Assembly (NCBI RefSeq): GCF_019649055.1
Contig: NW_026570300.1
Coordinates: 62,001 to 126,000 of the forward strand
Direction of reading: 5' to 3'
DNA length: 64,000 nt
Source of the DNA: Paramacrobiotus metropolitanus
Lineage: Eukaryota; Tardigrada; Eutardigrada; Parachela; Macrobiotidae
Notes under the pieces: model-generated
Database searches by the model: none
The model's input: the letters and a program-made list of their open reading frames with translations, nothing else
What the model was told of the DNA's origin: nothing
Translations under genes and position numbers: made by a program
Part shown: piece by piece, positions 1 through 41,115 of the stretch
How positions within the stretch are numbered: the first letter of the stretch is position 1
How the letters are laid out: the number at the start of each line of letters is the position of its first letter

Positions 1-354
1 CTTGGCAGATGCTGCAAAGTATGGCCGATGGCGGCCGCAGTGGGGGCCAGTTCAAAGGGCATAGTGAAGTCCTTGATCAAAATGTACGATAGTTTTATAT
101 TTTTCGCCATGAGGAGAGAGGTAGCCGCATACATGTCGATGCATTCGTGATCGCGGTAACCCAGACCAGTTAACACAAGGGCCTTCGTGCGTCGGCTGAT
201 GCTCCGGTCGAGTAAACACCCAAAATAATACCCTTCTGTCTCCCGAAGTCCCGGTTGTTCTTGGTCAGCTTGCAAATCAATGTTAACGAGGATATCTGAA
301 GACAGTATCGAGTTTCCCGTGGTGCTCAGTATCTGATCCCATAGACTGCATACT
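1..354 (-). CDS. Partial exon, probable receptor ligand-binding domain (type I periplasmic-binding-protein-like)
   Basis: The minus strand is open from an acceptor (AG at 355-356, preceded by a pyrimidine-rich tract) to the window edge, giving about 117 codons in phase 1. Readable stretches include GLRETEGYYFGCLLDRSI, TKALVLTGLGYRDHECIDMY and AAAIGHTLQHLP. The order (a statement about a gap or source, a Cys, an alternating hydrophobic segment, then a T-x3-IGHTL segment) resembles the ANF-receptor/type I periplasmic-binding fold of receptor guanylyl cyclases and related receptors. That assignment is by eye and weak. The exon is real: a diverged copy starting at the same splice point and phase lies at 16197. 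The gene continues beyond the left edge and also upstream (rightwards), but no earlier exon was found. Confidence 0.5.
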
Positions 355-840
355 CTGAAACATATTGATAAAACTGTTCTCTGTAACGGTCGGCTGGTGA
401 GCATTCATGTGTCTCTTAAACATGATACGGTATTTACGGTAATGATTATGATATAATATAAGAGCACCGTTTTAGGTTTTAGGTTTACGCATATTTATCT
501 GTGATGCTTTAATTCTCTTTTGTTATTTTTACCGTCTTGCTTTTGCTTGAGAATGAATATCCAGTTGCAACAGGACTTCGGCCAAAATCCCGTGTAGGAA
601 GCTCCCAGTGACGAACTGTCCGTTTTCTGAAATATAGCAAATTTTAGACATACTATCCTGGACAATGGTACCGTTCCTGTTATGTAAAAGGCTTGGATGG
701 TGCGAGCTGGTTGCGGTTCAGTGCAATCCACTGAACATTGGACAGTGGTGAAGTTCAGTGGACACTGACAGTGGAACGTTCAATAGTAAGTGGGTGTAGT
801 CACTAAATGTACTTCTACTCATATAATATCCTTTACAAAT
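355..840. other. Non-coding stretch, intron or upstream flank of the left-edge gene
   Basis: Minus-strand upstream sequence of the receptor-like exon. It contains a short direct duplication of TTTTAGG at 470-483 and a cluster of CAGTGGA/CCACTG words at 720-775. No exon with convincing splice sites was found. Confidence 0.4.
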
Positions 841-2744: not shown

Positions 2745-3782
2745 TTACGCCTTCTTTTCGAACTCAGTAATTAAAAGCGTTTGTAACGTACTCGGACATG
2801 TTTGGCAGTCCAGTTCCGGATTGCTGGGAGAGTGTTCACAGACAGGTTTGTACGGGCAAGTGAGATTGTCACAACTGGCCGGCATATTTCGGCAATGGCA
2901 TGGCAGGTGCTGCGATTGGTGTAATGTACGAAAATCGTAGTGCGCCCCATTGGAGTATGATTTATACTCGAATCTGCTACCGATTACAAAATCATTCAAA
3001 AGGGCCACACGCTCATCACCGAAATGGCGGAAGCATTCAAGCAATTCTTCAGCAACTCGCGACATCTTCGCCGGGAAATCTGCTGTTAGAACAAACCGGG
3101 GGACGTCGCCTGGCGTCATCTCGCGCCTGATTCCCAGAAACAGCCTGCAGGTCATCGTATTCCCCACAATTCTCAAGAAACAGCGATCCCGTCTGTTGTA
3201 GATGCTGTAACCAGCTCCAAAAAATAGTAAATCGGTAAACTGTATGATATCGTGTTCAGTCAGTGGCTGGAGCACGCTCGCATTCTTCGCTTCCAAGGTA
3301 AATTTGATCACAGGTAGTTCAGTCAGCTGGTGAAACAACGGTGGTTGCTCGGGAGGAAGGTCTTGAACGATTTGCCACAGATGGACAACATGCTGTTGAC
3401 TCATACTGTCGGCATCTGTTGCATCCAGAGATACGTAGCATAACGCTTTGCTTTCAACGCAACAATCACTTAGCAGTTTGCCCGGACGAAAAATGTATGG
3501 CCCATTATCATTCCCGCGCACAGCGACGTGAACTGACAAAGAAATTTTATCGGGTCCAGCAGGAGCGCTTGATCCCCTGATCGGAAAACGATGATGCTGC
3601 CATACATAGCGTGAATCGATCCAGAATGGGGGAATTTTTGGGCTGTCCAGATTGAGAAATACCATTTCGCCATCGATATCTTCGATATATGCCAAACACC
3701 ATGCATAATCATCGCGTTTCACCAGAACGGTGTTTCCCATATTGATCTGATCTCGGAAGCGTTTCCGCCGAAAGAACGCCAT
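2745..3782 (-). CDS. Unrecognised protein with Tudor-like N-terminus and C-terminal Cys/His module, copy 1
   Basis: Single-exon reading frame of 345 residues starting MAFFRRKRFRDQINMGNTV. Residues about 14-62 (NTVLVKRDDYAWCLAYIEDIDG, then WIDSRYVWQHH) look like a small SH3-like barrel of the Tudor/Agenet type, because of the alternating V/A-x-Y/W-x-A-x-I-x-D-I-D-G strand pattern. A middle part carries VESKALCYVSLD and VVHLWQIVQDLP. The C-terminus holds an ordered set of eight possible metal ligands, CxCx6Cx4Cx5CxHx8Cx2C, with CPYKPVCEH inside. Copy 2 at 12438-13679 aligns along the full length with identical ligand spacing, which argues for purifying selection. Copy 2 has an intron where this copy is continuous, so this one may be an intron-less retrocopy. 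I do not know the family; chromatin or nucleic-acid binding is only a guess. Confidence 0.75.
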   Translation of the reverse strand: MAFFRRKRFRDQINMGNTVLVKRDDYAWCLAYIEDIDGEMVFLNLDSPKIPPFWIDSRYVWQHHRFPIRGSSAPAGPDKISLSVHVAVRGNDNGPYIFRPGKLLSDCCVESKALCYVSLDATDADSMSQQHVVHLWQIVQDLPPEQPPLFHQLTELPVIKFTLEAKNASVLQPLTEHDIIQFTDLLFFGAGYSIYNRRDRCFLRIVGNTMTCRLFLGIRREMTPGDVPRFVLTADFPAKMSRVAEELLECFRHFGDERVALLNDFVIGSRFEYKSYSNGAHYDFRTLHQSQHLPCHCRNMPASCDNLTCPYKPVCEHSPSNPELDCQTCPSTLQTLLITEFEKKA

Positions 3783-4386
3783 TTATCTGAGAATTAATGT
3801 GCTATCTGGCGCTCAGATGAACTCCAAGAAACAAATTAATAATTGTAAGGAATTTATTGTCTCCCTGCTATCAAGTCAGGGCGATGAAACTGGCACACGT
3901 ACTGGAGCTAAAAATCTTTTGCTAGACTGATTTCAGATTGAGGTTTGCGACATATCGAGTAACTTTGCACTGTTTGCAGTCGGTCTGCACTGTTTAATTC
4001 TCTTTCTCTCAGGGTTCCGTGATGTGGAAAAACTTTTCCCTGCATTGTTTTCATCGGGGCTGATGTTTGATTAGCTTCGCCCAGCAGCAGGATAGACGAA
4101 AACTGCCTTCCCAACTGCTTTATATTCTTGTACACCCTTGTGGCTTGTACCATAATGCATATAAACAGCATGCACTACGCTTGTACGTGTCATATATTTT
4201 CAAAGGCACCAGGGCCGCCTGACAAATTCCTCTAGTTTAATTTGTTCGTATAGAAGGTAGATAAGGCACTAGAACAAGAAAGGCATAAACAGAATGGCAG
4301 TAAAAGCCGGACTGAAATTAATCTAATTGTCCTGGGTGAACAGTTTAACCAACACTGTACCTAGAGTACAGTCTTGGCACAACTTA
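3783..4386. other. Upstream flank of copy 1
   Basis: Intergenic sequence 5' of the minus-strand gene. A stretch at 3908-4171 is open on the minus strand for 87 codons but shows no family resemblance or splice signals, so I treat it as chance. Confidence 0.4.
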
Positions 4387-5493
4387 TGCTAGGTCCATAC
4401 TTCAGTTGTAAGAAAAAGTTGTACAACAAATCGTAGTCTTAAAATGGGAACTACGATTACAACATTCGTAGTTGCAGTTACCAGGATGTTGTAGCAATGT
4501 TGTGCAATTTTTACTTTCTGCAACACTTTCCGACCATACTTCAACCACAACTAAAATTTAAGCCAACCCAGCACAGACGCGATTGGGGGAGATTGTCCCG
4601 CTTATTTTTATTAACAAGCGGAAGCAACCCTTTTATTAAGTTTATAATACCACTGACCAAACGAAAATATACAGAAATACAATATATCAATCATGGTCGC
4701 TATCATACCAAAAAAACCATTATAATATAAATGCAGACTTTTGTAGTTACTACAGTGAATCGAGTTTCTAAAAATGTATCGGCATAGTTATAATAATACA
4801 GAGTGAGAAACATAGTTTTGATGTTACTAAAGAGGGCAGAGGTCTGTAAAAAAATGGCGCATAACCTGCAGACTACAGAGTATTAACCGCTTTTAACTGG
4901 AAGCCGTTTTACGGCCCAGCGCCCTTCAGTTATTTTACCATTTTCCTGCTCGGCATCAACGAACCCGGCTGCAACATACCGGCGCGATCTCGCCTAGGTA
5001 CTGTCGCGCATAAAATTTCTTTAGGTATGTATTCCTTCAGGATATGGCAATCAGTTCATAGGTTACGTCATATTGATATCAGGTAATGAGTATGCTTCAA
5101 GTAATGATTATGTATCAAGTAATGTATCAAGTAATGATTATGTATCAAGTAATGAGTATGTATGTAATGAGTGTGTTTTATTAATTTAAAGAGTATCATT
5201 GCAAGTAGAGTTATAAACACATATAATAATAATTATGGTAATTCTGAGAAAATTAGCCATTGGCCAGTTTTCTACAATGTTGCAGAAAGGAAGAGAAGCC
5301 CCTCCCTCCTGAAACATCGATTTACAACAAATTTTTTGTTGTACAACATTTTTCTTACAACACGCAGCGTCCATACTTTCGAGAATTACAAAAAAAAATG
5401 CTACAACAAACTCGACTCTCGTGCATACTTTTTCTACGATTGTTGTAAGATTTCTATTGTATTCCGAATTACAACTGAAGTATGGACCTAGCA
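4387..5493. mobile_element. Non-autonomous DNA transposon, PIF/Harbinger-like, 1107 bp
   Basis: Perfect 25-bp terminal inverted repeats begin TGCTAGGTCCATACTTCAGT at 4387 and end with the inverse at 5493. They are flanked by the trinucleotide TTA on both sides (4384-4386 and 5494-5496). A TWA (TTA/TAA) target duplication is the hallmark of PIF/Harbinger elements. Subterminal words related to the TIR (CCATACTT, GTTGTAA/TTACAAC) recur near both ends, for example at 4530-4555 and 5372-5390. Internal reading frames do not exceed 106 codons and none resembles a transposase. Positions 5085-5170 hold a short tandem array of TCAAGTAATGATTATGTA-like units. Confidence 0.8.
5085..5170. repeat. Short tandem repeat inside the Harbinger-like element
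   Basis: Four to five imperfect copies of a unit of about 12-18 bases built from TCAAGTAATGA(T/G)TATGTA. The copies differ by internal deletion. Confidence 0.7.
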
Positions 5494-5572
5494 TTATCCT
5501 CGTGGGGGCAATCGTTTCCTTCTTCTATACTACGAGAAATTCAAGGTTATACCATGGTACAAAATAATAATA

Positions 5573-5990
5573 ATTATTTTGCACCGTCACTAAAGTGGTC
5601 ATACTATATGTATTACGTTTGTCGCTATTATACACTGAAAGGTCAACAATGTTTTCAGAAGGGCTGAGCCGCTTTTTCCGTCACAATTTCCGGTGTCACT
5701 GCAAGTAACACATAGAACGTTTAAATCAGATCTGCGGATTACAAAGCCGTGTACACCGGAAGTAAGTCAAACTGCCCAGACAGCCATCGGCCCGTCGATA
5801 CATGATACATATACGCGAGGTCCCCGGTGACACTGAGCTTAACCGGCAACTGTTGGAGACGTCACTGAGATTAGCCCAGTTGCGACACAATACATTAAAA
5901 GACGTGACTGAGGTCAGCCCAGTCGCGACAACAATACACTGCTGCTGAGAATTAATTCGTGCACAATGGATTTCCTTTACTGACGTCACA
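5573..5990. repeat. Interspersed repeat family R1, copy A
   Basis: Shares an ordered set of words with 7225-7670 and 34755-35300: GGTCAACAATG, a GGGCTGAGCCGCTTTTTCC block, AAGCCGTGTACACCGGAAGT, and GTGCACAATGGAT near its right end. No terminal repeats or coding capacity were recognised. The 5' part present in the other two copies is missing here. Confidence 0.55.
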
Positions 5991-7224
5991 ATTCGAGTCT
6001 TATTGTTAGATCGAGGACGATCGTTCTAATGGACCGATTACGATTCACGACAGATCTTGCGATGCGAACACAGATTAAAAGAGTTTACACCAATAATGTA
6101 CTAGAAATGATTTGAATTGATTGCTACAGTTCGAAGTAAATGAATGGTAACCATTTTTCGGTTACAGGCAGTATGAGGCATATTGTAATCTGTAGGTTTT
6201 ATTGGCGCAATTTTTCTCTCACACTCCCGTGTGAAAGAAGACCCGGCAAAAGAACTAGAAATAGAAACCTCTATGAAAAAAGCAAAGACCGCTACTCTTC
6301 CGTTTGTGTCTGGTTTTCCTGCCTGTTTTCATACGAAGATGCTTTTCGCCTATACTCTGTTCCACAAAAACATGCCCTTAATCGTAATCGGATCTAAGTC
6401 TTCGTTTGGGATGTCTGGTTTATATTCTCAATATCACGAAATGGATACTACGATCGACGACAATGTCTATTCGTCGACGACAATTTGAAGTTGACTATAC
6501 AGAACAAGGTCATCACATTCTTCTGCCTGCTGTCCAGCTGAGTCGAAAAAGGAAGACTCGTGCTAGTGAATTTGGTGTAACGCCATTAACGGCGCAGTGC
6601 GCACCTTCGTTCCGCATACAGTTTGTACAGTATACCGTAGTACATTTTTATTTTCATTTTGACTGGGATTTAAAACACTCGTAAAGTAACTACAGAGTGA
6701 GTGTACTACTGTGAGTGGTGAGTAAAACAGTAGTGAGTAAAACAGAGTAGTGAGTAAATAACTACGTAATATCAATAGCAGTCAAATAACATCGATTTCT
6801 GCGGTGACCCGGAGTATTACGATTTTACAACATACGTACCTGCATAAACGCTTTGTACAGTCATGCATGAGGCGAAACCTCGAGTGGCTGACTGGAGAAG
6901 TAGAGGGAAGGTGTATGTATATATACATTTTATTCTATGCATAATGTCAAATTGAATTCCAAGGGCAACTGCTGATAGCGAATGCTTTAATTATTGTGCA
7001 TTATAAAATTCAGTCAGTCCGCGAATGACTCCGAATCCACCGGCGAGTGAGAAAACAGTCACATTGACCAGACTATATATTGAGTGCTGTGCCTCAGGGT
7101 TTGTCTGCTCGGAAATAAACTAAACTATAAACTAAACTAAAGCGCCGAAAGAGGTTAGATTGTGTGAATGATAGACAAAACAAAGCAAGCATAAGAACAT
7201 AAAAAGGAGAGGTAGAGCACGCAT
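5991..7224. other. Intergenic stretch with minor simple repeats
   Basis: Contains a short GTGAGTAAAACAGTA tandem at about 6716-6760 and a run built from AAACTAAACTA at 7118-7142, which could be the tail of an old retroposon. No convincing exon; reading frames of 85-92 codons at 6140-6684 overlap each other in different frames and look like chance. Confidence 0.4.
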
Positions 7225-7670
7225 ACATAATCGCCATGCGGTTGCCGGTAGGCGAAAGAACAAATGATCTGGCTGCATTAGTACATGGAGACTGATGGAG
7301 TTACCATCACATATATATACATACGAATGTTGAATCTTTCACAGAATCGAAAATCTGGGACCAAATGCCGCTGACCTATGGAAAATTACAAATTTCTGGG
7401 AACTTCTAAACCGAGCGAGTACTTACGTTTATGGCCCATATGCATAAGTATAGCAGAGTAAGTATTAACAACTGGAAAACCAAAATATAGCAAGGTATTA
7501 TACGCGTTTAGCCAGACTACTGTTAAGTGAAAAGTTACCATTGTGTGTAACTGGTATTATTTACAAAAAGGGTCAGCCTTTTTTTACCGGCATTGCTGCT
7601 ATTAAGGATTAAAGCCGTGTACACCGGAATTACTGTAAATTATAAATCCAACTGCCCGGACAGCGTAACC
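7225..7670. repeat. Interspersed repeat family R1, copy B
   Basis: Begins with CGCCATGCGGTTGCCGG and continues with AAATTACAAATTTCTGGGA, TTACCATTGTGTGTAAC, ACAAAAAGGGTCAGCC and AAGCCGTGTACACCGGAA, in the same order as the copy at 34755. Diverged by point changes and by an internal insertion of about 120 bases between the second and third words. Confidence 0.65.
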
Positions 7671-8600
7671 GCAGTTAAAGCACTCAAGTACAGCTGTTTC
7701 CTCCTGTGGGTGTTGAGACTTTGAGGCCTTTCGGACCGGAAGACTCTGTTGATCAGCAAACTGGCAGGAAAATAAACCAGCAAGCAGATGGGCATTAGCA
7801 ATGAAATATCTGCACCGCCGCCAACGGATCGGTATCCAAATTCAACGTGAAAACGTGGCATCCATCTTGGGAACGAAATCAGCTTCGAGTAACTTGTACC
7901 AACTACCAAGTGTTCCCTGTTGTGCGGCCGTCAGTTTCCGTTTTTTGCTAAACGGTATATGATATTTGCTTTTTGAATTTTCTACAGAGTATGTGCGATT
8001 TTAAGCAACATTTTTGACAATAGAGCCGCCCTGAAACACACACTAATTAACGATTGTCGGTAGAATAGTACTCCAGAGTACAGTGCAGTCACTGCAGCAG
8101 ATAAATGGTACAGAGAAAATCTAAAGTGCTGAAAAATAATATCCCCGTCACCCGTTGTGCAGCAGTTGATAAAATTGTTAACCGTTATATTTTAATACCA
8201 CCTACATTTGCTTATTTAGCAAATTAGCACAGAAACACGAAGGCTATCTGTTATCAAGGAAGGAACATTCGAACATACTGGAGCCGAAAGTAAAGATATT
8301 TTAATTTGACGCGCGAAAGCCGACGCACGAGGGTGTTCTCGTAATTATCCAAGTAAACGGTGATCCCTTATTTCGCGTCTTGTTTTGTATGGATACGAAG
8401 TACTTTAAAGATATTTAGAACGTAAATGGAAATATTTATGTTTTTGTCTAGTATGAATGGAAATGCTTTCTACGCAACTGTAGTGCATATGCTGGATACT
8501 CCTTCGCTAATATTGTGTCGAATTGGCTGACCGAGGCTGCGTCACTTCCTGTGCTGCGATGCTATTTCAGCCAGACTTAGTGTGATTGTCAGAAATGTGA
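7671..8600. other. Intergenic stretch, nothing recognised
   Basis: The minus strand is open at 7640-7909 with a hydrophobic run (PICLLVYFPASLLI), but it overlaps the edge of a repeat copy and has no splice or homology support. Otherwise no features. Confidence 0.35.
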
Positions 8601-11600
8601 ACTATAATAACTATAAGAATTATGACAACTACGCACTTGTATGATAACTTCCTGCATGGTGGCATATGCATGGTGGCTGGTGGATATTTTAATATCCACC
8701 AGGCCAGCCAGTATTTTACTGTTATTTCCTGACATGGCTAGCTATTCTAATTAAAAATATTTTTAAGTGATTAATTTTCGTGTTTCGCGTAGTTTAAGTG
8801 CCTATAAGCACAAGATAACTCACATTAGTTGAAATGGGAAGACCAAAACAGTGTAGACTTTCGACCGTTGCATTTCATCACTTGAATATCCAGGGCTTAT
8901 CGTATGCCAAAGTCGATCTTATTCAACAGTTATTGAGTAATGAAGATAACTGTTCGAAAATATTATGTTTATCCGAATCACACCTGTCTATGCATGATCC
9001 TGATCAGCTCTATGCGCTTCCTGGATACCAGCTCCTTCGCAAGGACCGTAGTAAAGCATCAGGAAAATCTAAGGGTGGTGGCCTGTTATTATACGTTCCT
9101 TCTCATATACCGTGCTCAGAAGTTCGCAGATCGGATACATGTGGCAGATGTGAAAGTTTATGGGCAGTTTTGCAAGTCGGACAGCGGAAAGTTCTTGTAG
9201 GGCTTCTCTACAGAGCTCCTGATGCCAGCGCCTTTGACACGGAGTTCTTGTTCAGTCACGTTGATGAGATGCTTGTAAAATATCCTGGCCATGATCAGGT
9301 GGTATGTGGGGACATAAATGTGGATGTTTCTGTGCCTTCTTCCCCCTATTACCGTCACTACCGCGATTTAATGAACCACCATGCGTTGTCGGACAAGGTG
9401 AGTGGATTCACGAGAGTGGCATGTCGAATCCGAAGAAAGGACGGCGCAGTGTTGAATAGTGCGAAGAAGATCGATATCATGTTGTGTTCACCAGCGGAGA
9501 GTTACACCTCAGCGCCACCGGAAGACGTAAGTTTTTCAGACCATCGTTTGTGCAGAACAGTCGCGTCGTACAAATCTGCAATTCCCATTCACAAAACCAT
9601 TACGTTTCGCCTATGGAAGCATACAACCATAGAAGAATTCCACCGAAGAATCAGAGAAGTTTCCGAAAACTACAGTGATTACGACAAATCTGTCCCAGTT
9701 GACGATTTTGTGTCAAGTTACATCCAGGAATTAAACAATATTGTCGATCATTGTTTACCGTTACGAACCCGCAGGGTTCGTCAAAAAGAGCCCCCCTGGA
9801 TGAGCGTGCCCCTAAAAACATTGATCGAGGGAAAGAATGAAGCCTACCGCCTCAGATGTCAGTTCCGTGACTCGCTAGAATTTGAGCAGTACGACAAGCA
9901 ATTTAAGACTATGAAGAAAGCAGTGCGTTCGATGATCCTGGATGAAAAGCGAAAATTCTTCGCTCAAAACAGAGGAGAAACCGAAAAAATATGGCGGGAG
10001 TTAGCCAGACTGCTTCGTAAATGCAAAGAAAAAGAAGAGTCATCAGTGGATCCCAACGTGCTGAACGCGCACTTTGTTGCACAAGGATTGCACGGAAACG
10101 ACCACCCTGTACCTTGCATGCCCCCCGAGGGCGGTGACACTAACCCATTGCTTTGCAGGTTTACCGATGTATCAGTTGACGTTGTTGCACTTTTGCTGAA
10201 AGGGATGGCAAAACGGAAGAAGAGCGCTGGTCCCTGCGGGATGCCTAGCAGAATCCTGGCAGGCGTGAACCAGTATCTTACTAAACCGCTAACGATCATG
10301 ATTAACGCATCCCTGAAAGCAGGAGTGTACCCAACGATTTTCAAAAGCGCTGACGTAGTCGCCATCCCGAAGCAGACCAATGCACGACAGCCGGATGATT
10401 TCAGACCAATTTCACTGGTGTGCAACATATCGAAAGCTTTCGAGAAAGTTGTACAAAACCAGCTTGTAGCCGTTTTGAAGACCGGGAATGTGTTTTCTGA
10501 GAAGCAATCCGGATTCCGGGACGGACACTCGTGCGAAACCTTACTGCTGAAACTGTCCGAAAAGTGGAGAAAAACAATGGATGCTGGGAAAATTACAGCT
10601 TTATGCCTAAATGACCTTAAAAAGGCATTCGATTCTGTTTCCCATGCGAAAATGATTGAAAAGTTACACGCGATTGGCATCCGTGGTGGCGCGCTAAAAT
10701 GGTTTCACAGCTACCTGACTTCCCGAAAACAGCGCGTTAAGATGATCCGGAATGTGTCAGACTGGCTGCCAGTGCAATCGGGTGTGCCCCAGGGAACACG
10801 TCTGGCTCCGGTGCTCTACACGCTGTACACAAACGACATGCTACCGGGACTCGACGCCGAATGCTTTGCGGATGACACCGTGCTGTATGGTGTCGGCACC
10901 ACCCACGCGGAGGCAGCTTTGAATCTTGGCATTCAAGTTGATAAGGCGACCACCTGGTTTGCAGCGAACACCCTGTGCGTAAACGAGAAGAAATGTAAAC
11001 TTATTTACATCTGTCCACAATCAAGGAAAAACCAGCCTGCGCCTACAGTCAGGATGAACGGTCACCAGCTGGAAGCGGAAACATGCGTAAAATACCTCGG
11101 CATTTACATCGATCAAAATTTAAAGTGGGAGGAACATTTCAGCCATATACTGCGGAAAGTTAACTACGGCATCGCAATGATAAACGCAGCGAAAGAAGGC
11201 CTGGACATGTCACAGCGCAGGAGTCTTTACCATGCCTGTGTGCAACCACATTTCGACTACGGGTCGGATACGTGGTCACCAGCATCTTCGACTCTACGCG
11301 ACAAGTTGACCAGAGCCCAACGGAAAGCACTGCAGGCCATTACTGACTACAAGGAGCGGGTAACCCCCGAGCTGTATCAGCGATTGCGCATCCTGCCGGT
11401 ATTTGACCGTTGGAAGCAGTCAGAAGCCGTTTGGTTGTATAAGATCTACAACCATGAAGTGTACAAACTTCCGCCCTACCTGGTTGAACTGATCGACTTC
11501 AAGGATCTGTCACCGCAGTACAATCTCAGGAAGCCGAAACGAATCCAAGCCAGAGCGAAACAGAAAATCGGAGAAAGCACGCTGGCCATGCGGTTAAAGA

Positions 11601-11803
11601 ACGTTTTTGAGCGGATTCAGAAAGTTAATTCACAGATACTCAGTGTTAGCGGCGTTAACTTTTTCAAGTTCGCTCTGAAAACTATTGATCTGTCTAAATA
11701 ATCTCTTCTGTAATTTTTCGCTGCATTTTTTACCGACCAGACATTGAAGTCCTGTTAAACGGGTTGTCTGCTCCTGATACATGAATGAATAAATGAATGA
11801 ACT
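8600..11803 (+). mobile_element. L2/CR1-like LINE with uninterrupted ORF2
   Basis: Non-LTR retrotransposon. The ORF2 frame is whole. The element ends near 11803 in a short TGAA-rich tail (ATGAATGAATAAATGAATGA at 11780-11799), the kind of 3' end seen in L2 and related CR1-group LINEs. The 5' limit is not visible; no ORF1 was found upstream, so it is either a one-ORF lineage or 5'-truncated. Positions about 8671-8713 form a hairpin (TGGTGGATATT with its inverse), possibly part of the 5' UTR. Confidence 0.8.
8834..11701 (+). CDS. LINE ORF2: AP-like endonuclease and reverse transcriptase
   Basis: 955 residues with no stop. The N-terminal third is an exonuclease-endonuclease-phosphatase domain: NIQG near residue 18, LSESHLS near 48, LLYRAPD, GDINVD near 158 and FSDHR near 235. 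The reverse transcriptase follows: FRPISLVCNISKAFEKVV, the motif A aspartate in NDLKKAFDSVSH (about D594), SGVPQGTRLAPVLY, and the catalytic FADD at about 678-681. The C-terminus has LGIYIDQNLKWEEHF and the usual HACVQPHFDYGSDTW segment. All catalytic residues I can locate are present, so the copy looks recent and could be active. The clade (L2 or CR1 group) is inferred from motifs and the TGAA tail. Antisense frames here (up to 238 codons) are shadows. Confidence 0.92.
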   Translation: MGRPKQCRLSTVAFHHLNIQGLSYAKVDLIQQLLSNEDNCSKILCLSESHLSMHDPDQLYALPGYQLLRKDRSKASGKSKGGGLLLYVPSHIPCSEVRRSDTCGRCESLWAVLQVGQRKVLVGLLYRAPDASAFDTEFLFSHVDEMLVKYPGHDQVVCGDINVDVSVPSSPYYRHYRDLMNHHALSDKVSGFTRVACRIRRKDGAVLNSAKKIDIMLCSPAESYTSAPPEDVSFSDHRLCRTVASYKSAIPIHKTITFRLWKHTTIEEFHRRIREVSENYSDYDKSVPVDDFVSSYIQELNNIVDHCLPLRTRRVRQKEPPWMSVPLKTLIEGKNEAYRLRCQFRDSLEFEQYDKQFKTMKKAVRSMILDEKRKFFAQNRGETEKIWRELARLLRKCKEKEESSVDPNVLNAHFVAQGLHGNDHPVPCMPPEGGDTNPLLCRFTDVSVDVVALLLKGMAKRKKSAGPCGMPSRILAGVNQYLTKPLTIMINASLKAGVYPTIFKSADVVAIPKQTNARQPDDFRPISLVCNISKAFEKVVQNQLVAVLKTGNVFSEKQSGFRDGHSCETLLLKLSEKWRKTMDAGKITALCLNDLKKAFDSVSHAKMIEKLHAIGIRGGALKWFHSYLTSRKQRVKMIRNVSDWLPVQSGVPQGTRLAPVLYTLYTNDMLPGLDAECFADDTVLYGVGTTHAEAALNLGIQVDKATTWFAANTLCVNEKKCKLIYICPQSRKNQPAPTVRMNGHQLEAETCVKYLGIYIDQNLKWEEHFSHILRKVNYGIAMINAAKEGLDMSQRRSLYHACVQPHFDYGSDTWSPASSTLRDKLTRAQRKALQAITDYKERVTPELYQRLRILPVFDRWKQSEAVWLYKIYNHEVYKLPPYLVELIDFKDLSPQYNLRKPKRIQARAKQKIGESTLAMRLKNVFERIQKVNSQILSVSGVNFFKFALKTIDLSK

Positions 11804-12437
11804 ACGTACATATGTGAAGACAGTCGACAGGGCAGTCTTTCACCAGTTGTACTGTATTTTCTGCCTTTTGTATGCACGAAATTAGAATAGTGCGCCTGAA
11901 ATAAGAGCTAACTGAAAGGCGAGACGACTACCGTTCGAGGAGACTCGCAATTGTCGCAAGTACTGTACATGCCTAGTGCAGGGCGTCACTTCGTGGCTTT
12001 GAATTCCTTTTGGGCTTGTGGCTTTGTGCTCTTCCAGTGCATCGGCGAAAATCTTCTATTCAACCGTAACCGTAATGCATATGAAGGAGACTCCTTCATA
12101 TGCACTACGAATTCAACAGCCAGCCTCTTCAGCCTAAAGTCTACGCCTGGACTCTGCTCGGCACAATAAGCAGTGCTGTCTCCTTTACCGTTTGACCTAA
12201 TTATTTCGTTTGTTTGCGGAGCACTAAAATCAGAATACTCTGGAAGTTACCGTATTTATATAAATGAGGAGATATAAGCATAAGCTCATCATTACCGACG
12301 CAAATGTCTCGCTCTACCAGACTACTTATGTGTTTTTGAACTAGGGAACAAATTCACCATTGATCTGTGAACCCCATAAGACGTGAATCGCGTATACGAT
12401 TTTATTGAAAATACCATAATATTTATCCGCTAAAAGC
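11804..12437. other. Upstream flank of copy 2, with a perfect palindrome
   Basis: No gene. Positions 12076-12104 are a perfect palindrome of 14-base arms (TGCATATGAAGGAG and its inverse) around a single A. Confidence 0.6.
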
Positions 12438-13679
12438 ATGCCATCTTCGTACTTCTCCCCCAAACGTGGGCATAATCAGTTTAACTTGGGCAATACAGTA
12501 CTGGTCAATCGTGGTGACAATGTGTGGTATTTAGCATACATCCAGGATATCGACGGCGATAAAGCTTTTGTCGATTTCGACTGTACTCGGATTCCACCCT
12601 ACTGGATTGATCTGGAGTACGTGTGGGAACATCATCATTTGGCGCTGTCAGAGCAGGAAGACGGCGAATATTACAACAAGTATTTCCCTGCTCCCAACGT
12701 GTACGTTGCCGTGCGAACTAACCAGAATTCACCGTACGTTTTCCATCAGGCTGAAATGTTCAGCCTCTGTTCAGTTGAAAACAAAGCGCTGTGTTATGTC
12801 TCACTCGATACTACCGTCGAACGCAGCAAGAAAACAACAAACCTCTGTCAAGTTGTACATCTTTGGCAAGTTGTACAGGAACTTCCTACTGCACAGCCAT
12901 CCGTGGGCACGCTACCTGGCGAAACACCTTTTATAAAACTATGTTTTGAATCTAAAAAGGTCAACGCAGCTTTTATAAAGGCTATCACTACTAGCGAGCA
13001 GGAGATGAAGACATTTGTCGATCTGCTTTTTCACGGTGCTGGATATCGCTATGGTTTCATTTACAACAAGGGATGGAATCGATTCTTCGTCAAGGTTGAG
13101 AGCGGGATAATTATGTTCATATTTTTAAAGATTTGGCGTTGGGTAACATTTGAGGAGCGAGAATGTTTTCCGTTCGTACTGACTGCCGAATCACAAGCGC
13201 GATTATCCAGTGCTTCCGAGAAGCTCATTGAATGCTTCAGCTACAGCGAAGACAACCGCGATATCCTTTTGAATGCCTATATTTGTTCGGGTAATGAAAA
13301 CGTTGTTTTAAAAAGAGACTTGTAGATTAATATGACAAACGCTTAATATAGTACTACAGAGTGGGGTGTGGATGTATATATGTAGCAACCGGCTTTATTC
13401 ATACCATAGTTTTTTCTTTCTTTTCTGATAGAGTTTGGTCTGATGAGAGGACTTCGATGGTATCGAACTGTGGGGACGCTACGTCAACCTCAGTTTCTCA
13501 TGTGCGAGTGCCGCAATCTTCCCACAAAATGCAACCGCGTTACTTGCCCGTACAAACCGGAGTGTGAACATTCAGTTCTCCATCCGGAGTTAAACTGCCC
13601 TACTTGTCCCAGTACGGTTTTGTTTTCCGAATATTTTCAGCATACAAGTACATGTAGTAACATTAATTTTATTGAATAA
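12438..13679 (+). CDS. Unrecognised protein with Tudor-like N-terminus and C-terminal Cys/His module, copy 2 (two exons)
   Basis: Exons 12438-13290 and 13432-13679, joined in phase 1 by an intron beginning GTAATG and ending in a long T-rich tract plus GATAG. The spliced frame encodes 366 residues. The N-terminus (NTVLVNRGDNVWYLAYIQ, WIDLEYVWEHH) matches copy 1, as do VENKALCYVSLD, VVHLWQVVQELP and FVDLLFHGAGY. Exon 2 supplies the C-terminal module with CECRNLPTKC, CPYKPECEH and CPTCPS, in exactly the ligand spacing of copy 1. Without the intron the first frame stops at 13325 and loses this module. The alignment to copy 1 across the junction (GS-x-F versus CS-x-F, then 30 residues to the first CxC) supports the model. 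Function unknown; a zinc-binding module is likely. Confidence 0.75.
13291..13431 (+). other. Intron of copy 2, absent from copy 1
   Basis: 141-bp GT-AG intron, phase 1, with a T/C-rich 3' end. The paralogue at 2745-3782 reads straight through the equivalent point. Confidence 0.7.
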
Positions 13680-14984
13680 CAGAATGTACTGTACTAATCT
13701 TACAAACTAATGTTGACTTTGACTCTTACAGAAAACGGGGAGTTCATCATAAAAGTATTTTTGTGCAACGTTCTGTCCGAAATACTTCTGATTTTGGATG
13801 TCTATTCGCAGGCCAAAGCAAAACGGTTCGTTGAAAGTAGAATGCACTTTGTACCATAAATTCCAACGTTCACGGAACTGATTCCGTCATTTGCAAAACT
13901 TTTTCAGCGATTTTATAATTTTTGTCTTTCTCGGTACTGTTTTCGCTGGGTATTTTGTCATTTGCGAGTAATTATTCCCAGTCCCAGATTCCCAGATCCC
14001 AGTGACTCTTTCAATAAATAATAGTCTGTTGTTCTTAATTTAGTTGGTTGTACGCTAGCAGAAAGGTTTAAGCAGTTACTGCCGTCTGGAGCGGCAGTAA
14101 CGGTAATAATAATATTCAGCTAATTTTTGGTCAAAATAAGTACGCAAAAGCAATTCCACGAATTTCATTTCAACATTTCCATTCGATACTAACAGACCAT
14201 TGTAACGTAAGGGTAAGGGCACCACGAAAATTATACCAAGTGTAAACGGCCTCCGTCGTATCAGTTTTAAAGGGTGGTGCTGTGTTGGTAACCGAGGTAC
14301 GCGTATCCGTTGTCACAGGGCGCGGCCACCACGTGCGGCTGCATAGGGTAGGGGCACCGGCCGAGTCAATGTAAGGATACCAGTGAGTGTGACATGTGTG
14401 CACTTGTTTGTATCGAGCGCAACCAGAAGCTACGATTTAGCGTTCGTCAGTCGGACCTATCCTCAAAGTATCTAAGTGCGTGACATTTTTCAAATTTCAT
14501 AAACTGTTCGCTTTGCAGTGTTATCGGGCGCTCGCTCGGTGCAAATGATCGAGCAAAACCACTGCTATCTATTATACAAGATCTTACATTACGCGGTTCA
14601 TATTTTGAGATTCTATAACCATAAAACTTCTGGAAAACAGACAACCATTAGATCCGGATAGTTCAGAAGTGGCCGGCACGTGTTTTTTTTATGAAAATAT
14701 CGAGCCGGCATCAAGCCGGCATCAAGACCAGATTGATCCAACCCATCTTAAAGGTCACCTTGAAACTTAGAAAATATTTGCCTAGATACAATACAAAAAT
14801 ACCAATTGATAATTATCACACTAATTAAACCGAAAACAAATAAATTATTGTACTTATTCAAACACTCGTTATTCAAAACATCGCTACCGGTGTTGCCAGA
14901 GCCTCGAAACACGTTTAAAATCAACCGATATAAAAATGTAAAAATATCAAATATAAAAATCAATACGAAAAATCACTGGACGAG
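13680..14984. other. Intergenic stretch
   Basis: No exon with support. Small direct duplications: CCCAGATTCCCAGATCCCAG at 13981-14000 and GAGCCGGCATCAAGCCGGCATCAAG around 14701-14725. Confidence 0.4.
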
Positions 14985-15019: not shown

Positions 15020-15690
15020 GAATTTCTAGGTGAGTGAGTCATCGAGCGGGTTTTTGTTTGTTACCTTTAACGGCTTGTGCACTGGACAGTAGTTGTAGCA
15101 GGGTCACATCCTCACCTAGCTTTTTCTCCCCACTAGCGATATTTCTTACTGGACAGGTTGAGCTCGGTCAGTCACTCACCTAGTGATTGAGTGCGTCAAA
15201 AAAATCGCTAGGTGAGTACGTGAGCTAACACTACTGTCCAGTGCACGAACTCGTTAAGTGATCTAGTGACCGAGCTACCACTACTGTCCAGTGCATAGAT
15301 CCCGTTAGGTAGATGGGTGACCGAGCTACCAATACTGTCCAGTGCACAGAGCCTGTTAGGTGAACGCGTGACCATACCACTACTGTTCAGTGGACGAACT
15401 CCGTTAAGTGATCTAGTGACCGAGGTACCACTGTCCAGTGCACAAACTCCGTTAAGTGATCTAATGAGCGAGCTAGCACTACTGTCCAGCGCATAAACTC
15501 CGTTAAGTGATCTAGTGACCGAGCATCCTTTTGCATAGATCCTGTTAGGTAGGTGACCGAGCTACCAAAGCTATCCAGTGCACAGAGCCCGTTAGGTAAA
15601 CGTATGATCGAACCGCAATATTACTGAGCAAAATAGAGCTGGGCCTGTCCTAAGTGACTCATTCAGCACCACTGTCCAGTCTTAAAGGCC
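15020..15690. repeat. Degenerate minisatellite with higher-order order and inverted leading units
   Basis: About eight direct copies of a unit of roughly 45-60 bases from 15230 to 15625, built as CACTACTGTCCAGTGCA, then a variable arm, then GTGACCGAGCTAC. Three arm types can be told apart: A (ACTCCGTTAAGTGATCTA), B (AGATCCCGTTAGGTAG) and C (CAGAGCCTGTTAGGTGAAC). They run A-B-C-A-A-A-B-C. Between 15060 and 15180 related units lie in the opposite orientation (GTGCACTGGACAGTAGT; GAGCTCGGTCAGTCACTCAC), so the locus can fold back on itself. The CTAGGTGAGTGA word recurs at both edges. Confidence 0.8.
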
Positions 15691-16196: not shown

Positions 16197-16500
16197 AGTT
16201 TGTCGGTTATGGCAGCAAGTGCTAACTAGCTCCTGGGCAACGACAGATGTTTGTGTCACCGTTGATTTTCAAGCCATAAGCAGATTAACCTCCGGCCTTC
16301 GTGAAACGGAAGGCTACCACATTGGATACATGATGGATTACAGCATAACGCACTCAACCAAAGCTCTAGTTTTAATTAATCGGGGTGTCGCGGTTGCGTC
16401 TTTACCGACATGTACACTATCTATTCTTATTTTCCCTAAAGAGTTTTAAACTGCTATATATTTTTGATCAAAGACTTGTGCGTGTTCGGAACTTATTCCA
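16197..16500 (+). pseudogene. Decayed copy of the receptor-like exon at 1-354
   Basis: After an acceptor (TTGCAG at 16191-16196) the plus strand reads VCRLWQQVL, then a SGLRETEGYHIGYMMDYSI block followed by TKALVLINRG. This follows VCSLWDQIL, PGLRETEGYYFGCLLDRSI and TKALVLTGLG of the left-edge exon, with the same splice point and phase. Beyond the GLG/NRG point the similarity continues only in other frames (TDMYTIYSY for IDMYAATSL, then YIFLIKDL for YILIKDF), so at least two frameshifts and a stop interrupt it. No flanking exons were found. It is best read as a fragment left from a tandem or segmental duplication of the receptor gene. Confidence 0.65.
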
Positions 16501-16637
16501 ACTGAGACAGGTCATCGCCTAGTGCGCCTGCCGGTACTTATGCCGGTTTGCCGGCAGTTGTTGGTGGTTAACTGCACCATAGTAAACGCTGTCTCCTGTT
16601 CCAACCACTGACCGCGATGAGCGTCTAATATCTAGCG

Positions 16638-17185
16638 ATGTCTTACTCTTCGAAAAAGCTCGACGTTACGGTTCCTAGGATGTCGTTTGATTGTTCAGCT
16701 AATGCCGGCGAAATCCTGCGATGCTTCATGGATATTCTAGAGAATTCTCTGCCACCAGATTCCATTAAGCAACGAGTGAAGCAGCAGCATCAGCTGATGA
16801 TGGAAACGGTACCTTACCCAGATGGCCGGCTCAAGTTTCGAAAACTGTTAAAGAGGTGAGTGCGACCATATAAAATGCACTGCAATGGAGCGCTAAGGTA
16901 CTATGTATCATGATCGTACATTAACGAAATTGCAGCTTCCTCGGTGCAAAAAAAGCGTAAAATATGCAGCACTGCTAATCTCGTTAATGCCATAGTCGAG
17001 TACGTATACATGTAATGTAAAAATTTTGCAGGCACACGTTTACACGATCCGTGGAAAATGATAATGATGCATTTTGGGATAATTTGGATTTAAGACGTTT
17101 CGAGGATCTGCCGCTTAGCCGCTATATTCTGCACTTGATCAATTTTAATAATGATTTGCCTCTAGAAGATGTTCATCCCTTTTGA
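16638..17185 (+). CDS. Small unrecognised two-exon gene, 123 residues
   Basis: Exon 1 is 16638-16855 (donor GTGAGT) and exon 2 is 17032-17185 (acceptor TTTTGCAG). The junction is phase 2 and the spliced length closes exactly on a TGA. The protein starts MSYSSKKLDVTVPRMSFDCS, contains a probable helix (GEILRCFMDILENSL) followed by a charged Q/K-rich segment, and ends in an acidic, aromatic part (FWDNLDLRRFEDLPLSRYIL). No signal peptide or membrane segment. I recognise no family. Both splice sites are strong and the frame survives them, which supports a real gene. The first exon could have an unseen upstream partner, since another ATG precedes none nearby. Confidence 0.6.
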
Positions 17186-25271: not shown

Positions 25272-28162
25272 ATGCTTAACGATGAAAATTTGTCCAGTAA
25301 CGATATTGGCTACCCGACCGTAAATAGTCGACAACCGAAACATCCTGTTCTTCTTGAGAACATCCGCATACGATGTTGTAATGTCAGAAGCGTCAAGAAC
25401 AAACGTGAAGAAGTGAAATTGTTTTGCTCGGACAGTGATGTGACCGTTCTTACTGAAACATATGATAGACCATTTATGACAGGTTCTGATTTTGCTGACC
25501 TGGATAACTACAATGTCTTTCGAAATGGTAGAGCTGATGGTCGTGGTGGTGTTGCTGTTGTTATCAGAAAATCTCTTTGTGCTTTTCCCATGCCAGAGCT
25601 TAATACTCCTTCCCTTGAAATTTTGTGCGTTGAGTCTCGTGCTATTGATCGTATTTTTATTGCTTTCTATGCGCCCCCTGATAAAAGTATTCATCTTGTG
25701 CCTGCCCTGATTAAACACCTGCGTTCTAATTTCTCTCTTGGTCTATTAGCAAAATGCATAATCATGGGTGATTTCAATCGGCCTGACATAAATTGGTCTA
25801 ATAAAACCGCAAGAAAACCAGCCAGTCGTGAGCTGCTGTCCGCTATCAAAGAATTCGAGATGATACAGCTAGTCAACTTTCCAACCAGGAAGAACAATTG
25901 TCTTGACTTGTGTCTCATCAGTGCCAACTCGCTTTTTTCACCAGCAGTTCCCATCAGCCCGCCCTCCTCTACCAACGATCATATCGGTTTTGAATTTTCT
26001 CTGAAACTAAAGAAATATCGCAGAAAATTTCGTACTGTTAAGCGATGGAAAATCGAAAGCAATAATGTTGGTCAGTTCATCGACGCGTTAAATGTTGTCA
26101 ACTGGGAAAGTTTATTTTGCAATTTAAACGTTAATGAAAGAGCAGATAAATTTGAAAATGTTTTTCTCGAAACAGCAAAAGCATATTTTGAATTTAGTGA
26201 CGTGAAAATTCGGATTGGTGCAGTGAAATATCCTAGAAATATTAAAAAAGTAATAAATTCAAGAGATCTTGCTTTTCGTAAATACCGACAGATAAATCTA
26301 CCGAATTTGAAAACTAAATGGAAAAAGTTGTCAAAGAAATTAAGTGCTGCTAAGAAAATTTGAAAACACAGACTTTCTGATATTTCCACTGCACACAGAA
26401 ACAATCCATCCAAATTTTGGCGGTATATGAAATCGATGAATGACCGCATCGGTATGCCACCTCTCAAAAGGCCGGATGGCACGACGGCAGCTACAGATAA
26501 CGAAAAAGCTAATCTACTGAACGCTCTGTACCGCGAGTCTCAGTCGACCTGCAACGCGCACTGTACTGGCTCTGATTTAAATTTAATTTGCGGCAACGAA
26601 GAAAGGTGGGAAATCTCGGAGCTTTTGATTTTGAACAACTTGCGAAAATTTCTGTAACAACTTCAAGTGGCAAGTACGAAATCACTAACAAACTTCTGAA
26701 AATTGCTGCTCCAGGCATTCTTGCTCCGCTCAGATTAATTTTTAATGCCGCTATCAATGAAGGTGTGTTTCCGGTGAAGTGGAAGCATTCGTTTATAACA
26801 GCAGTACCGAAAATCTCTGCAGATCACAGATTGCCGGGTAGCTATCGACCAGTTTCAATGTTGAACCCAGTTTCAAAAATTTTTGAACGTTGTCTTGATC
26901 AATTAATTCGTGAACATTTGAACAAAAATTCAATACTTCTGGATCACCAGTTTGCTTACCGGCATAAAAGGTCTACTGAGCTACAGCTATTTCTTTTTGT
27001 CAAGTCTTTGAACGATTTCAACACAAGCGGCATTGCTGTAGATGCAGTATTCTTGGACTGCTCAAAAGCTTTTGATAAGCTTTCCCACGAATCCATCATA
27101 AACGCGCTGATCGAAATGAATCTTCCCAGTCACATCGTACATTTGGTCTCTGATTACTTGAAAGATCGAACACAATGTGTGACAGTTGGAAATGAGTTTG
27201 CTCATTCGTTACCCGTTAACAGTGGTGTACCGCAGGGTTCAGTTTTAGGGCCACTACTGTTCATTTGTGTCTTAAATTTCATTCTCCGCGCATTAAAAAA
27301 CGGTAGCGCCGCTCTCGTTTTTGCAGATGACGTAGTTATTTTTCGCCCCATTACTGAAACAGGTGACAGTCAGCTGTTGCAGGAAGATCTTACTTCTCTC
27401 AATGAATGGCTTGCTAGCAAAAAGCTCAGTCTAAACGCTGCTAAGTCTGCCCACGTTCACTTCTCAAAACAGAAATCCTCGGTCTGCCCATATTATTACA
27501 GTATCGATAATGTTACGATTCCAAATTGTGATCATGTCAAACACTTGGGCATATTCGTTGACCGAAAACTAAATTTTAAATTAAATAGTGAAAATGTAGC
27601 AAAAAAATGCAACCGAAAAATCAGCTACATTAATCACATTTTCCGTTATACTGATTGCGGTGCTCGCATACGACTTTTTGTCTCTTGTCCTCTCGGTCAT
27701 CGATTACTGTTGCTCCATCACGCACCCGTTATTCAAACAGTCCGCTGATCTCTTAGAACGTTGCCAGAGAAGATTCACTAAATCCTTGCGACTCGGCAAC
27801 AATGTTCTAAATTATGGTGCACGGCTAAAAGAGCTTAAATGGGATGATTTAATTACTCGCCGTTTAAAAAAAGCGCTGTTGTTTTGTATAAATTGGTCTT
27901 TCGGGTGATTCCTATGGGTGATCAAATCGTAACTCCTCTTACGTTTTCGGTCTCTGCGTTTGAGTCTGTTGCAGGAAACACAAGATCATCCGAGCGTCTA
28001 ATGAAACATCCATGTCCTATAAAACCTGCCGCGACGACCTTTTGTGGGATAACAGTGACTACTGACCACCTGTCCTATATAAACACCCTCGCCTCCATCT
28101 GGAACGAGCTTCCTTTGCAGCCAGTAGCCTATGTCACATTAAAGCCTTTTCGGAAGCCCTGA
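25272..28162 (+). pseudogene. LINE ORF2 (endonuclease-reverse transcriptase), broken
   Basis: The endonuclease domain is open at 25272-26363: NVRSVKNKREEV, VLTETYD, FYAPPDKS, MGDFNRPDINW and STNDHIGFEF. A TGA at 26361-26363 interrupts the frame, which then continues to about 26600 (FWRYMKSMNDRIG). A frameshift near 26600 leads into the reverse transcriptase frame (26588-27748): YRPVSMLNPVSKIFERCL, motif A VFLDCSKAFDKLSH, SGVPQGSVLGPLLF and FADDVVIF. A further shift near 27680 moves to the conserved C-terminus (ERCQRRFTKSLRL). About three breaks in all. Confidence 0.8.
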
Positions 28163-39531: not shown

Positions 39532-40209
39532 GTTAAAATGTGATAAGTGTAGGATTCAAGCGCTTAAATTTTGATGATAAATTCAACGAATGCGTAAGCA
39601 CAAGGTAAAACAGGAAAGTGAAATAGCTGATAAAAGTGTCAGAAAAGTTTTTTTTATGATAAATTGATAAAACGAAAAAATTAAGACTTACGGTCACTTA
39701 CCATTAGAAAAGCCAACCACCAAGTCGTTTTGGTTACAGTACTACTGGCATGGATACTATGGGCGGCTGGCAGGAGGCAGGTGTGTCGCAAGGTAGGCCG
39801 CCGTTATTCTGGAATGCTGACAGGAAGTCTGATGCAGCAAGCTACAAACTGCAAAAGTGCAAATCAAAACAGATCGTCAGAATACATCCAAGAATGCAGA
39901 ATTCCAAGATTTCAATTTTAAGTTAACAACTTAACTGTTAACAGTTAACTTTGTAAGTTTTTTTACTTCTTTTGAGTTTTTCTCTGATTATTTCAGCCGC
40001 CCCAACTTTCGTAAGGTATAAATAAACGTGATCCTGTTGTCACTTTTGTACCTAGGAGTGGCTGAAAGAATTTTCAGCAGCAACGTTCAAAGTCAGGCAA
40101 ACTGGCCGAAACTGCGTTTGCCATCAATCTTTCCGTGATATTGACACTCGGTCATTATTTTCTTCTCCTTCTTCTTTGTTTGTATCTCTACTTCCGCAAA
40201 GATAAACAG
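39532..40209. promoter_or_regulatory. Head-to-head intergenic promoter region, PPP2R3C and OTUD6B
   Basis: The two start codons are 678 bases apart on opposite strands, so both promoters must lie here. A TATA-like box TATAAATA is at 40017-40024 in the OTUD6B direction. Positions 39924-39952 hold a GTTAACTGTTAACAGTTAAC-type palindrome. Confidence 0.5.
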
Positions 40210-41115
40210 ATGGACGAAGAGGATATCCATCAGCGGCATCGGAGGGAGCTGAAGGACCTCCAGACCAAATGTACAACGCTGAAGAAATCAGCACCCGTTT
40301 CCGACAAGAAACGTCGCAAAGAAGTTCTCGGGGAGATCGCCGCCCTCGAAAAAGAGCTCCAGGAGCGTCATGAGCGCGAACTCGCGGAATTCCAACCCAA
40401 GGCTACCCTTCCAACCGAGCCCCACACTGATGGGGACGCCTCCGTGGATGAGTTGAGCGGAGAGACAGCGAACCTGGAGATAACGCCTGCGGAGGTCGCC
40501 GAGGTCCCGGACGGATCTCCCGTGCATTCCGACAACGAAACCGCCACGGAACCCGGAAAAAAAGCCACCCGCGCGCAACGGCGTCGCCAGAACAAGCAAG
40601 CCAAACAAGCCGAGCTGAAAAAGTCCCTGAAACCCGACGACACCGGTCCCATCCAGGTGTCAGCGCGCACCATGGAAAAAATCAAATTAAAAAAGATCCT
40701 GGATGAGAACGGGCTGCGCGTGGTGGATATGCCAGCGGATGGCAATTGCCTGTATTTTTCCCTCGTCCACCAACTGAAACTGCACGGTGTGGAGAAGACC
40801 GTGAAGAGTCTGCGGGAGATGGCGGGCGGTTTCATGCGAGCACATCGCGATGAATTCCAACCTTTCGTCCATGAGGATTTCGATGAGTACTGCCGGGAGG
40901 TGGTGGAGACCAACGCCTGGGGCAGCCAGGTGGAGCTGCGCGCCCTCTCGGCCGGTCTGCAGCGGCCGATTCGGGTGCTGCAGGCGGAGGGACCGGAAGT
41001 GTTTATCGGTGAAGAATATCAAAAGGAAGCGGTGCTGCCGTTGACTGTCGTCTTCCACCGGCATGAATTAAGTCTCGGGGAGCATTATAATTCCGTGATT
41101 CCCAAGGATGAGTGA
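40210..41115 (+). CDS. OTUD6B: OTU domain deubiquitinase, OTUD6 type
   Basis: Single exon, 301 residues from ATG 40210. The frame is open for 25 more codons upstream to an ATG at 40135, but those residues are a hydrophobic low-complexity run absent from OTUD6 proteins, and the family begins with an acidic E/D-rich start like MDEEDIHQRHRREL. Residues 1-60 form a charged coiled coil with DKKRRKEVLGEIAALEKEL. A basic TRAQRRRQNK stretch follows near 120. The OTU domain spans about 168-300: the catalytic Cys box DGNCLYFSLVHQ (D177, C180) and the His box GEHYNSV (H292). WGSQVELRALS and FIGEEY are also typical. The enzyme hydrolyses ubiquitin chains; in mammals it acts on proteasome assembly and translation. 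All catalytic residues are present. Confidence 0.93.
   Translation: MDEEDIHQRHRRELKDLQTKCTTLKKSAPVSDKKRRKEVLGEIAALEKELQERHERELAEFQPKATLPTEPHTDGDASVDELSGETANLEITPAEVAEVPDGSPVHSDNETATEPGKKATRAQRRRQNKQAKQAELKKSLKPDDTGPIQVSARTMEKIKLKKILDENGLRVVDMPADGNCLYFSLVHQLKLHGVEKTVKSLREMAGGFMRAHRDEFQPFVHEDFDEYCREVVETNAWGSQVELRALSAGLQRPIRVLQAEGPEVFIGEEYQKEAVLPLTVVFHRHELSLGEHYNSVIPKDE

Follow-up and report, generated by a model that had tools for sequence, protein, structure and literature searches.

Gene structure of the two copies

The analyzed window, a stretch of 64,000 nucleotides of the tardigrade Paramacrobiotus metropolitanus (C80:62001-126000, contig NW_026570300.1; window positions are used for copies A and B throughout), harbors two related genes, copy A on the minus strand and copy B on the plus strand. 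The predicted exon order is exon 1, a cysteine-rich exon, a short exon encoding the front half of an F-box, and a last exon that completes the F-box. The parts of the two genes are as follows (^ marks a splice site; the evidence is given in brackets):

2981..3782, minus strand: copy A, exon 1 part, encoding an N-terminal domain without a recognised family (ORF, alignment of paralogues)
2792..2980, minus strand: copy A, VWC-derived part, 189 nt, seven cysteines and a histidine, ending at the donor CCGA^GTACGT (VWC is the best Pfam family, E 0.14; the C80 VWC is the best of 18)
2745..2791, minus strand: copy A, tail of the ORF given in the earlier note, most likely a read-through intron (splicing at 2792 leads into the F-box exon with the frame preserved)
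533..626, minus strand: copy A, F-box first-half exon, 94 nt (spliced F-box with Pfam E 0.016, below the cut-off)
1..354, minus strand: copy A, last exon, which leaves the window and has its stop at C80:61973, the C-terminal part lying in another frame (one frameshift)
12438..13290, plus strand: copy B, exon 1, with a phase 1 end, TCGG^GTAATG (splice site, alignment of paralogues)
13432..13611, plus strand: copy B, VWC-derived exon, 180 nt, phase 1-1 (VWC is the best Pfam family, E 8.9e-4; the C80 VWC is the best of 18)
13732..13825, plus strand: copy B, F-box first-half exon, 94 nt (spliced F-box with Pfam E 8.6e-4, below the cut-off)
16197..16856, plus strand: copy B, last exon, broken by several frame changes and stops relative to the intact paralogue C (comparison with C)

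An earlier note on this DNA, made from the sequence alone, had described two ORFs here. The ORF of copy A at 2745-3782 (minus strand) is real, being open over 345 codons, and the motif WID-x3-VW-x-HH reported for both copies is present in A and B. Copy B, which starts at 12438 (plus strand), is 44% identical to copy A. Its interval 12438-13679 is not a single ORF: it contains four internal stops, and an intron of 141 bases separates exon 1 from the cysteine-rich exon. Nor do the ORFs represent whole genes, the F-box half-exon and the last exon being located downstream of both A and B.

In both copies exon 1, the cysteine-rich exon and the F-box exon can be joined in frame and on into the last exon; for copy B, where skipping was tested, the frame is also open when the VWC-derived exon is omitted. 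Splicing is predicted on the basis of splice signals and open frames. Exon 1 of B, C and D ends in phase 1 at a matching position, while copy A reads on into its VWC-derived part, and the intron between these two parts is thus absent from copy A. Retroposition of copy A as a whole was ruled out because introns persist after its VWC-derived part.

The window also contains several other features. A LINE-type element lies between A and B on the strand of B (8834-11701, plus strand); its open frame of 955 codons encodes an endonuclease domain and a reverse-transcriptase domain (RVT_1, E 1.8e-33). A second one extends over two frames at 25272-27748 (plus strand; endonuclease 25272-26363, RVT_1 26588-27748). 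Inside the copy B intron that precedes the last exon, a unit of 51 bases is repeated in tandem 6.1 times (15222-15524). Further downstream are an OTU-family cysteine protease, likely a deubiquitinase (40135-41115, plus strand; PF02338, E 1.2e-27), and a FERM domain of the sorting nexin 17/31 type (47277-48230, plus strand; PF18116, E 2.3e-22).

A large F-box family

The genome (169,799,020 bases, 533 contigs) was searched with copy A as the query. The search for further copies that had been proposed in the earlier note did find them: there are at least 117 exon-1 matches (117 of 637 candidates scored; 118 matches were listed, one of which was copy B's own module exon and was set aside). The description of A and B as a divergent pair is therefore no longer tenable; to judge from these matches, both are members of a large, fast-evolving tardigrade F-box family with more than 100 members.

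The F-box half-exon and the last exon were each found in all six loci carrying a recognisable cysteine-rich exon (A-F), and the F-box half-exon in five of six other loci, the only miss being L068, where none was found. For the spliced sequences, F-box or F-box-like was the best Pfam family in seven of seven cases (E 1.9e-4 to 0.06), one of the seven passing the curated F-box cut-off. The last exon starts with RVCxLW, and a match to it lies at most 10 kb downstream on the same strand in 26 of the 30 best exon-1 matches. Using 117 exon-1 matches and 149 of 153 listed last-exon matches, we found among the matches listed a last exon within 10 kb downstream of 63/117 exon-1 matches and upstream of 30/117; within 3 kb the counts were 50 downstream versus 15 upstream.

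SCF adaptors bind Skp1 via the F-box. The family resembles F-box proteins serving as SCF ubiquitin-ligase adaptors (PF00646, PF12937) in its LPxEIL..L...RVCxLW core, here spread over two exons, and in the large F-box expansion of this genome; it differs from them in that an exon-1 domain of no recognised family precedes the F-box and that one clade has the VWC-derived exon interposed. Proteins of this family probably act inside the cell as SCF-type substrate adaptors and would bind Skp1. The F-box-like expansion as such is very large and covers many contigs: at least 150 matches (of 997 candidates, 150 were scored), each of them above the cut-off, were located, judging by eye, at places other than the exon-1 places of this family. 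On a short contig, C383:2023-2688 (plus strand) carries a last exon that shares 85% identity with the one in C and probably belongs to another close member.

The exon-1 domain matched no family in our searches. Scanning exon 1 of 26 members against Pfam gave a best E of 0.032, in one member only, and a profile search of PDB sequences gave a best E of 0.19; the hits of the latter search, serpins among them (E 0.19 or higher), were judged to be chance matches. A separate Pfam scan likewise gave exon 1 no family. The Tudor-like N-terminus proposed in the earlier note is unsupported here: the TUDOR profile (PF00567) had 20 matches in the genome, none of them at the listed exon-1 places, and Pfam found no TUDOR in exon 1 of the 26 members. 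A structure model of exon 1 from a two-row alignment was unusable (pLDDT 31). With at least 117 genome matches and none in the Pfam or PDB searches, exon 1 may encode a new domain family. The statement that the proteins match no known family consequently stands for exon 1, but not for the cysteine module, which is related to VWC, nor for the F-box downstream.

The cysteine module as a VWC-derived exon

VWC is a disulfide module of extracellular proteins. A genome search with the copy A module yielded seven matches, six of them behind an exon 1; the seventh (C80:52962-53081) lies within a VWC domain recognised by Pfam (E 1.5e-11; E 1.4e-9 when the genome was searched for VWC), 11.7 kb from copy A's module on the same contig. 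When the exons of A-E were trimmed, VWC was the best Pfam family for all five (E 0.14, 8.9e-4, 0.0035, 0.0027 and 0.066, respectively), with scores of 12.9-20.0 bits, all below the curated VWC cut-off (PF00093, 27.6 bits). We consequently call these exons VWC-derived rather than canonical VWC: the cut-off is not reached, although VWC is the best family in each case. Siva, a cysteine-rich family and the best one for the untrimmed D exon (E 0.19), was rejected, as after trimming it gave 0.027 versus 0.0027 for VWC, and the exon of F matched no Pfam family.

The relationship was also seen in comparisons with other VWC domains of the genome (35 listed, 20 fetched, 18 with a second half compared, 12 used in hhalign). 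In Smith-Waterman alignments against the 18, the C80 VWC ranked first for all five exons (87-127 versus 56-64 for the runner-up). A profile of A-E matched that of the 12 genomic VWCs in hhalign with a probability of 91.7 (E 7.6e-7) and, with the C80 VWC left out, of 42.2 (E 2.6e-4), while the best of 20 column-shuffled profiles reached E 0.013; adding the diverged exons weakened the match (E 0.023). Residues resembling SD1 can be seen by eye upstream.

The exon boundaries agree as well. All exons are divisible by three in length (A 189, B 180, C 186, D 216, E 204 and the C80 VWC exon 195 nt), begin and end in phase 1 wherever there are splice sites, and share the end CC(C/G)A^GT; being phase 1-1, the exon is frame-neutral. 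In B and C the intron downstream of the exon resembles its counterpart in the C80 VWC gene (1 of 1000 shuffles for either copy), and in D it does so weakly (0.02); this similarity is absent in A and E, and for the upstream intron it is not convincing.

The module is hence, by descent, a degenerate VWC domain and not the zinc-type module of no known kind that the earlier note had placed at the C-terminus. It is like the VWC (PF00093) of chordin, crossveinless-2 and CCN proteins in its C3-to-C10 spacing, phase 1-1 exon and subdomain-2 alignment. It is unlike them in its cysteine and histidine set (see below), in scoring below the Pfam cut-off and in residing inside an F-box gene. The N termini of A and B have no hydrophobic signal sequence as judged by eye, and the presence of the F-box favors the cytosol over a secreted setting.

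Changes in the cysteine and histidine pattern

The spacing CxCx6Cx4Cx5CxHx8Cx2C is exact in both A and B, and all eight residues are kept in A-E (5/5). Eight further members (F, L005, L007, L013-L016 and L064), in contrast, have 3-5 of the eight residues left, so that the eight ligands, claimed to be invariant, are so in A-E but not in the family. In the 13 aligned exons C3, C4 and C7 are kept throughout, C5 and C9 in none of the eight further members, and the histidine in nine of 13 (four of the eight further members).

The disulfides of VWC are C1-C4, C2-C8, C3-C5, C6-C9 and C7-C10 (PMC6270503). In the aligned columns A-E retain C3-C7, C9 and C10, whereas C2 and C8 are absent from all five, and the C1 position holds a cysteine only in C, being lost in A, B, D and E although its partner C4 stays; the full set of ten conserved cysteines and five disulfides of VWC is thus lacking in A-E. 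The CC pair is kept by all 18 genomic VWC second halves. At the second position after C7, A-E (5/5) have a histidine, which occurs in 0/18 of these halves. The pattern indicates that the C2-C8 disulfide pair was lost and the histidine of CxH gained, and that the eight relatives later lost further ligands.

Retention of C4 together with the gain of the histidine speaks for a new function, for example metal binding. A strict metal site is disfavored by the later ligand losses, and also by a precedent for cysteine loss within an ordinary VWC: CCN6 is described as lacking four VWC cysteines in other animals (PMC10326224). Most likely, the VWC remnant serves as a surface for recognition that either metal or the remainder of the protein keeps in shape.

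Distribution of the exon in the family

A tree of 26 exon-1 rows places the carriers within one clade of 17 (support 100/99). Of this clade, 16 rows were searched with a profile of 13 exons, and 15 matched, all except L017; with copy A counted from its ORF, the exon is present in 16/17 clade rows. L008, L010, L011 and L012 were matched (E 1.8e-8 to 5.2e-5) though they had been outside the training set. Degenerate forms occur in L005, L007, L013-L016 and L064, with the frame intact and phase-1 sites in most of them (L016 has no listed acceptor). None of the nine rows outside the clade, most of them searched with 1.5 kb of flank, matched above chance. If A-F were the sole carriers, the tree would need three changes; the exon was later found in further rows, and this need is gone. 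As the exon is found in 16/17 rows in the clade and in 0/9 outside, its distribution fits a single origin, with the exon gained once, by one exon-shuffling event, where the clade began.

Selection and damage

For the close paralogues B and C we calculated dN/dS ratios of 0.31 for exon 1, 0.13 for the F-box half-exon, 0.37 for the initial part of the last exon and 0.88 for the VWC-derived exon; given the last value, constraint on the captured exon is weak in this pair. Exon 1 of A compared with B, C and D is saturated at synonymous sites (dN 0.46-0.49), as are distant pairs in general (dN 0.2-0.6). The suggestion of function from conservation, made in the earlier note, is supported in that there is coding constraint, evident in exon 1 of B-C; the pairs with A are saturated.

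The last exon is intact in C (222 codons). In copy A it has one frameshift, after codon 126, and in copy B several frame changes and stops; in E, exon 1 stops early and the last exon departs from its relatives. Because the assembly was made partly from Nanopore reads (PMC8277472), single indels may be errors, and the last-exon damage in A or B could instead reflect sequencing error. The findings that the earlier note had named as speaking against its reading, a match to known domains and disrupted copies, are partly seen: both the module and the F-box belong to known domains, and some copies are disrupted, B itself among them in its last exon.

Origin of the genes and alternative explanations

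The best explanation, which we consider probable, is that the genes encode SCF-type F-box adaptors with a captured and rewired exon of an extracellular VWC domain. Exon 1 encodes the N-terminal domain and is followed by the F-box, split over two exons, and the C-terminal domain. The sequences show that, at an early point in one sub-clade, one symmetric VWC exon of phase 1-1 came between exon 1 and the F-box, inside their phase-1 intron. It appears to stem from a neighboring gene for an extracellular protein, its nearest relative in the genome being the C80 VWC. The captured domain then lost C2 and C8, as well as C1 in four of five copies, and gained the histidine of CxH. The proteins would act inside the cell, the F-box binding Skp1 and exon 1, the VWC remnant and the last exon contacting targets. 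In the reducing cytosol the leftover cysteine/histidine cluster, having no reliable disulfides, would be either metal-held or a plain binding surface. A more specific version, that the disulfide module was turned into a metal-binding target-recognition module (seven cysteines and the new histidine) which one branch is now dismantling, we regard as tentative and on the whole doubtful.

An unrelated new zinc module, with eight ligands for two metal ions and no tie to VWC, could account for the retention of the eight ligands in A-E despite 44% identity between A and B, for the persistence of C4 where C1 is gone (A, B, D, E), and for a histidine seen in 9/13 aligned exons versus 0/18 genomic VWC second halves. 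It leaves unexplained why VWC is the best Pfam family in 5/5 trimmed exons, why the hhalign match to VWC beats shuffled controls, why phase and end of the exon are the same as in the C80 VWC and why SD1-like residues appear by eye upstream; the relation to VWC by itself already speaks against an unrelated origin, and the eight related exons with 3-5 of eight ligands left (noted above as losses) and the CCN6 precedent (PMC10326224) weigh on the same side, making such a module very improbable.

Decay is a more serious competitor, yet still an unlikely one: the window copies and the cysteine exon would be pseudogenes and their conservation residual. The broken last exon of B, the frameshift in A, the early stop and unusual last exon of E, and the B-C ratio of 0.88 for the VWC-derived exon are what one would expect of it. 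However, in both A and B open frames run through exon 1, the VWC-derived exon and the F-box exon and join in frame, dN/dS for B-C is 0.31 (exon 1) and 0.13 (F-box exon), distant pairs are saturated at synonymous sites while dN is 0.2-0.6, and C has an intact last exon of 222 aa. Somewhat less probable again is a mostly skipped cassette, the main protein then being exon 1 joined directly to the F-box. Skipping the symmetric phase 1-1 exon keeps the frame, as seen for B, and SD1 differs in length and sequence between copies; against this, copy A has no intron before its VWC-derived part, which makes exon 1 and VWC inseparable there, and the eight cysteine/histidine residues are kept in 5/5 copies.

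Significance of the probable exon capture

F-box families have expanded and diversified in many lineages; to our knowledge, the way in which a member gains a new recognition domain is rarely visible. In the literature we found nothing on a tardigrade F-box family or on an F-box joined to VWC. The closest parallel is that of the Caenorhabditis F-box A2 genes, which captured a Tc1/Mariner HTH domain (PMC12062965): there, too, a multicopy F-box family acquired a foreign domain, proposed in that article to widen the range of protein targets, but the domain came from a transposon, whereas here the putative source is an animal gene for an extracellular protein and the vehicle a symmetric exon. Searching that article for terms turned up no VWC, extracellular or tardigrades.

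In this family a single genome shows the donor domain, the phase-1 limits of the exon, the clade in which it spread and its later wear. Should the VWC remnant prove to fold around metal in the cytosol, the switch from disulfide to metal support could be tested directly. The conversion of the captured module, if true, would be a traceable case of a disulfide fold being refitted for the reducing cytosol, with its donor still next door.
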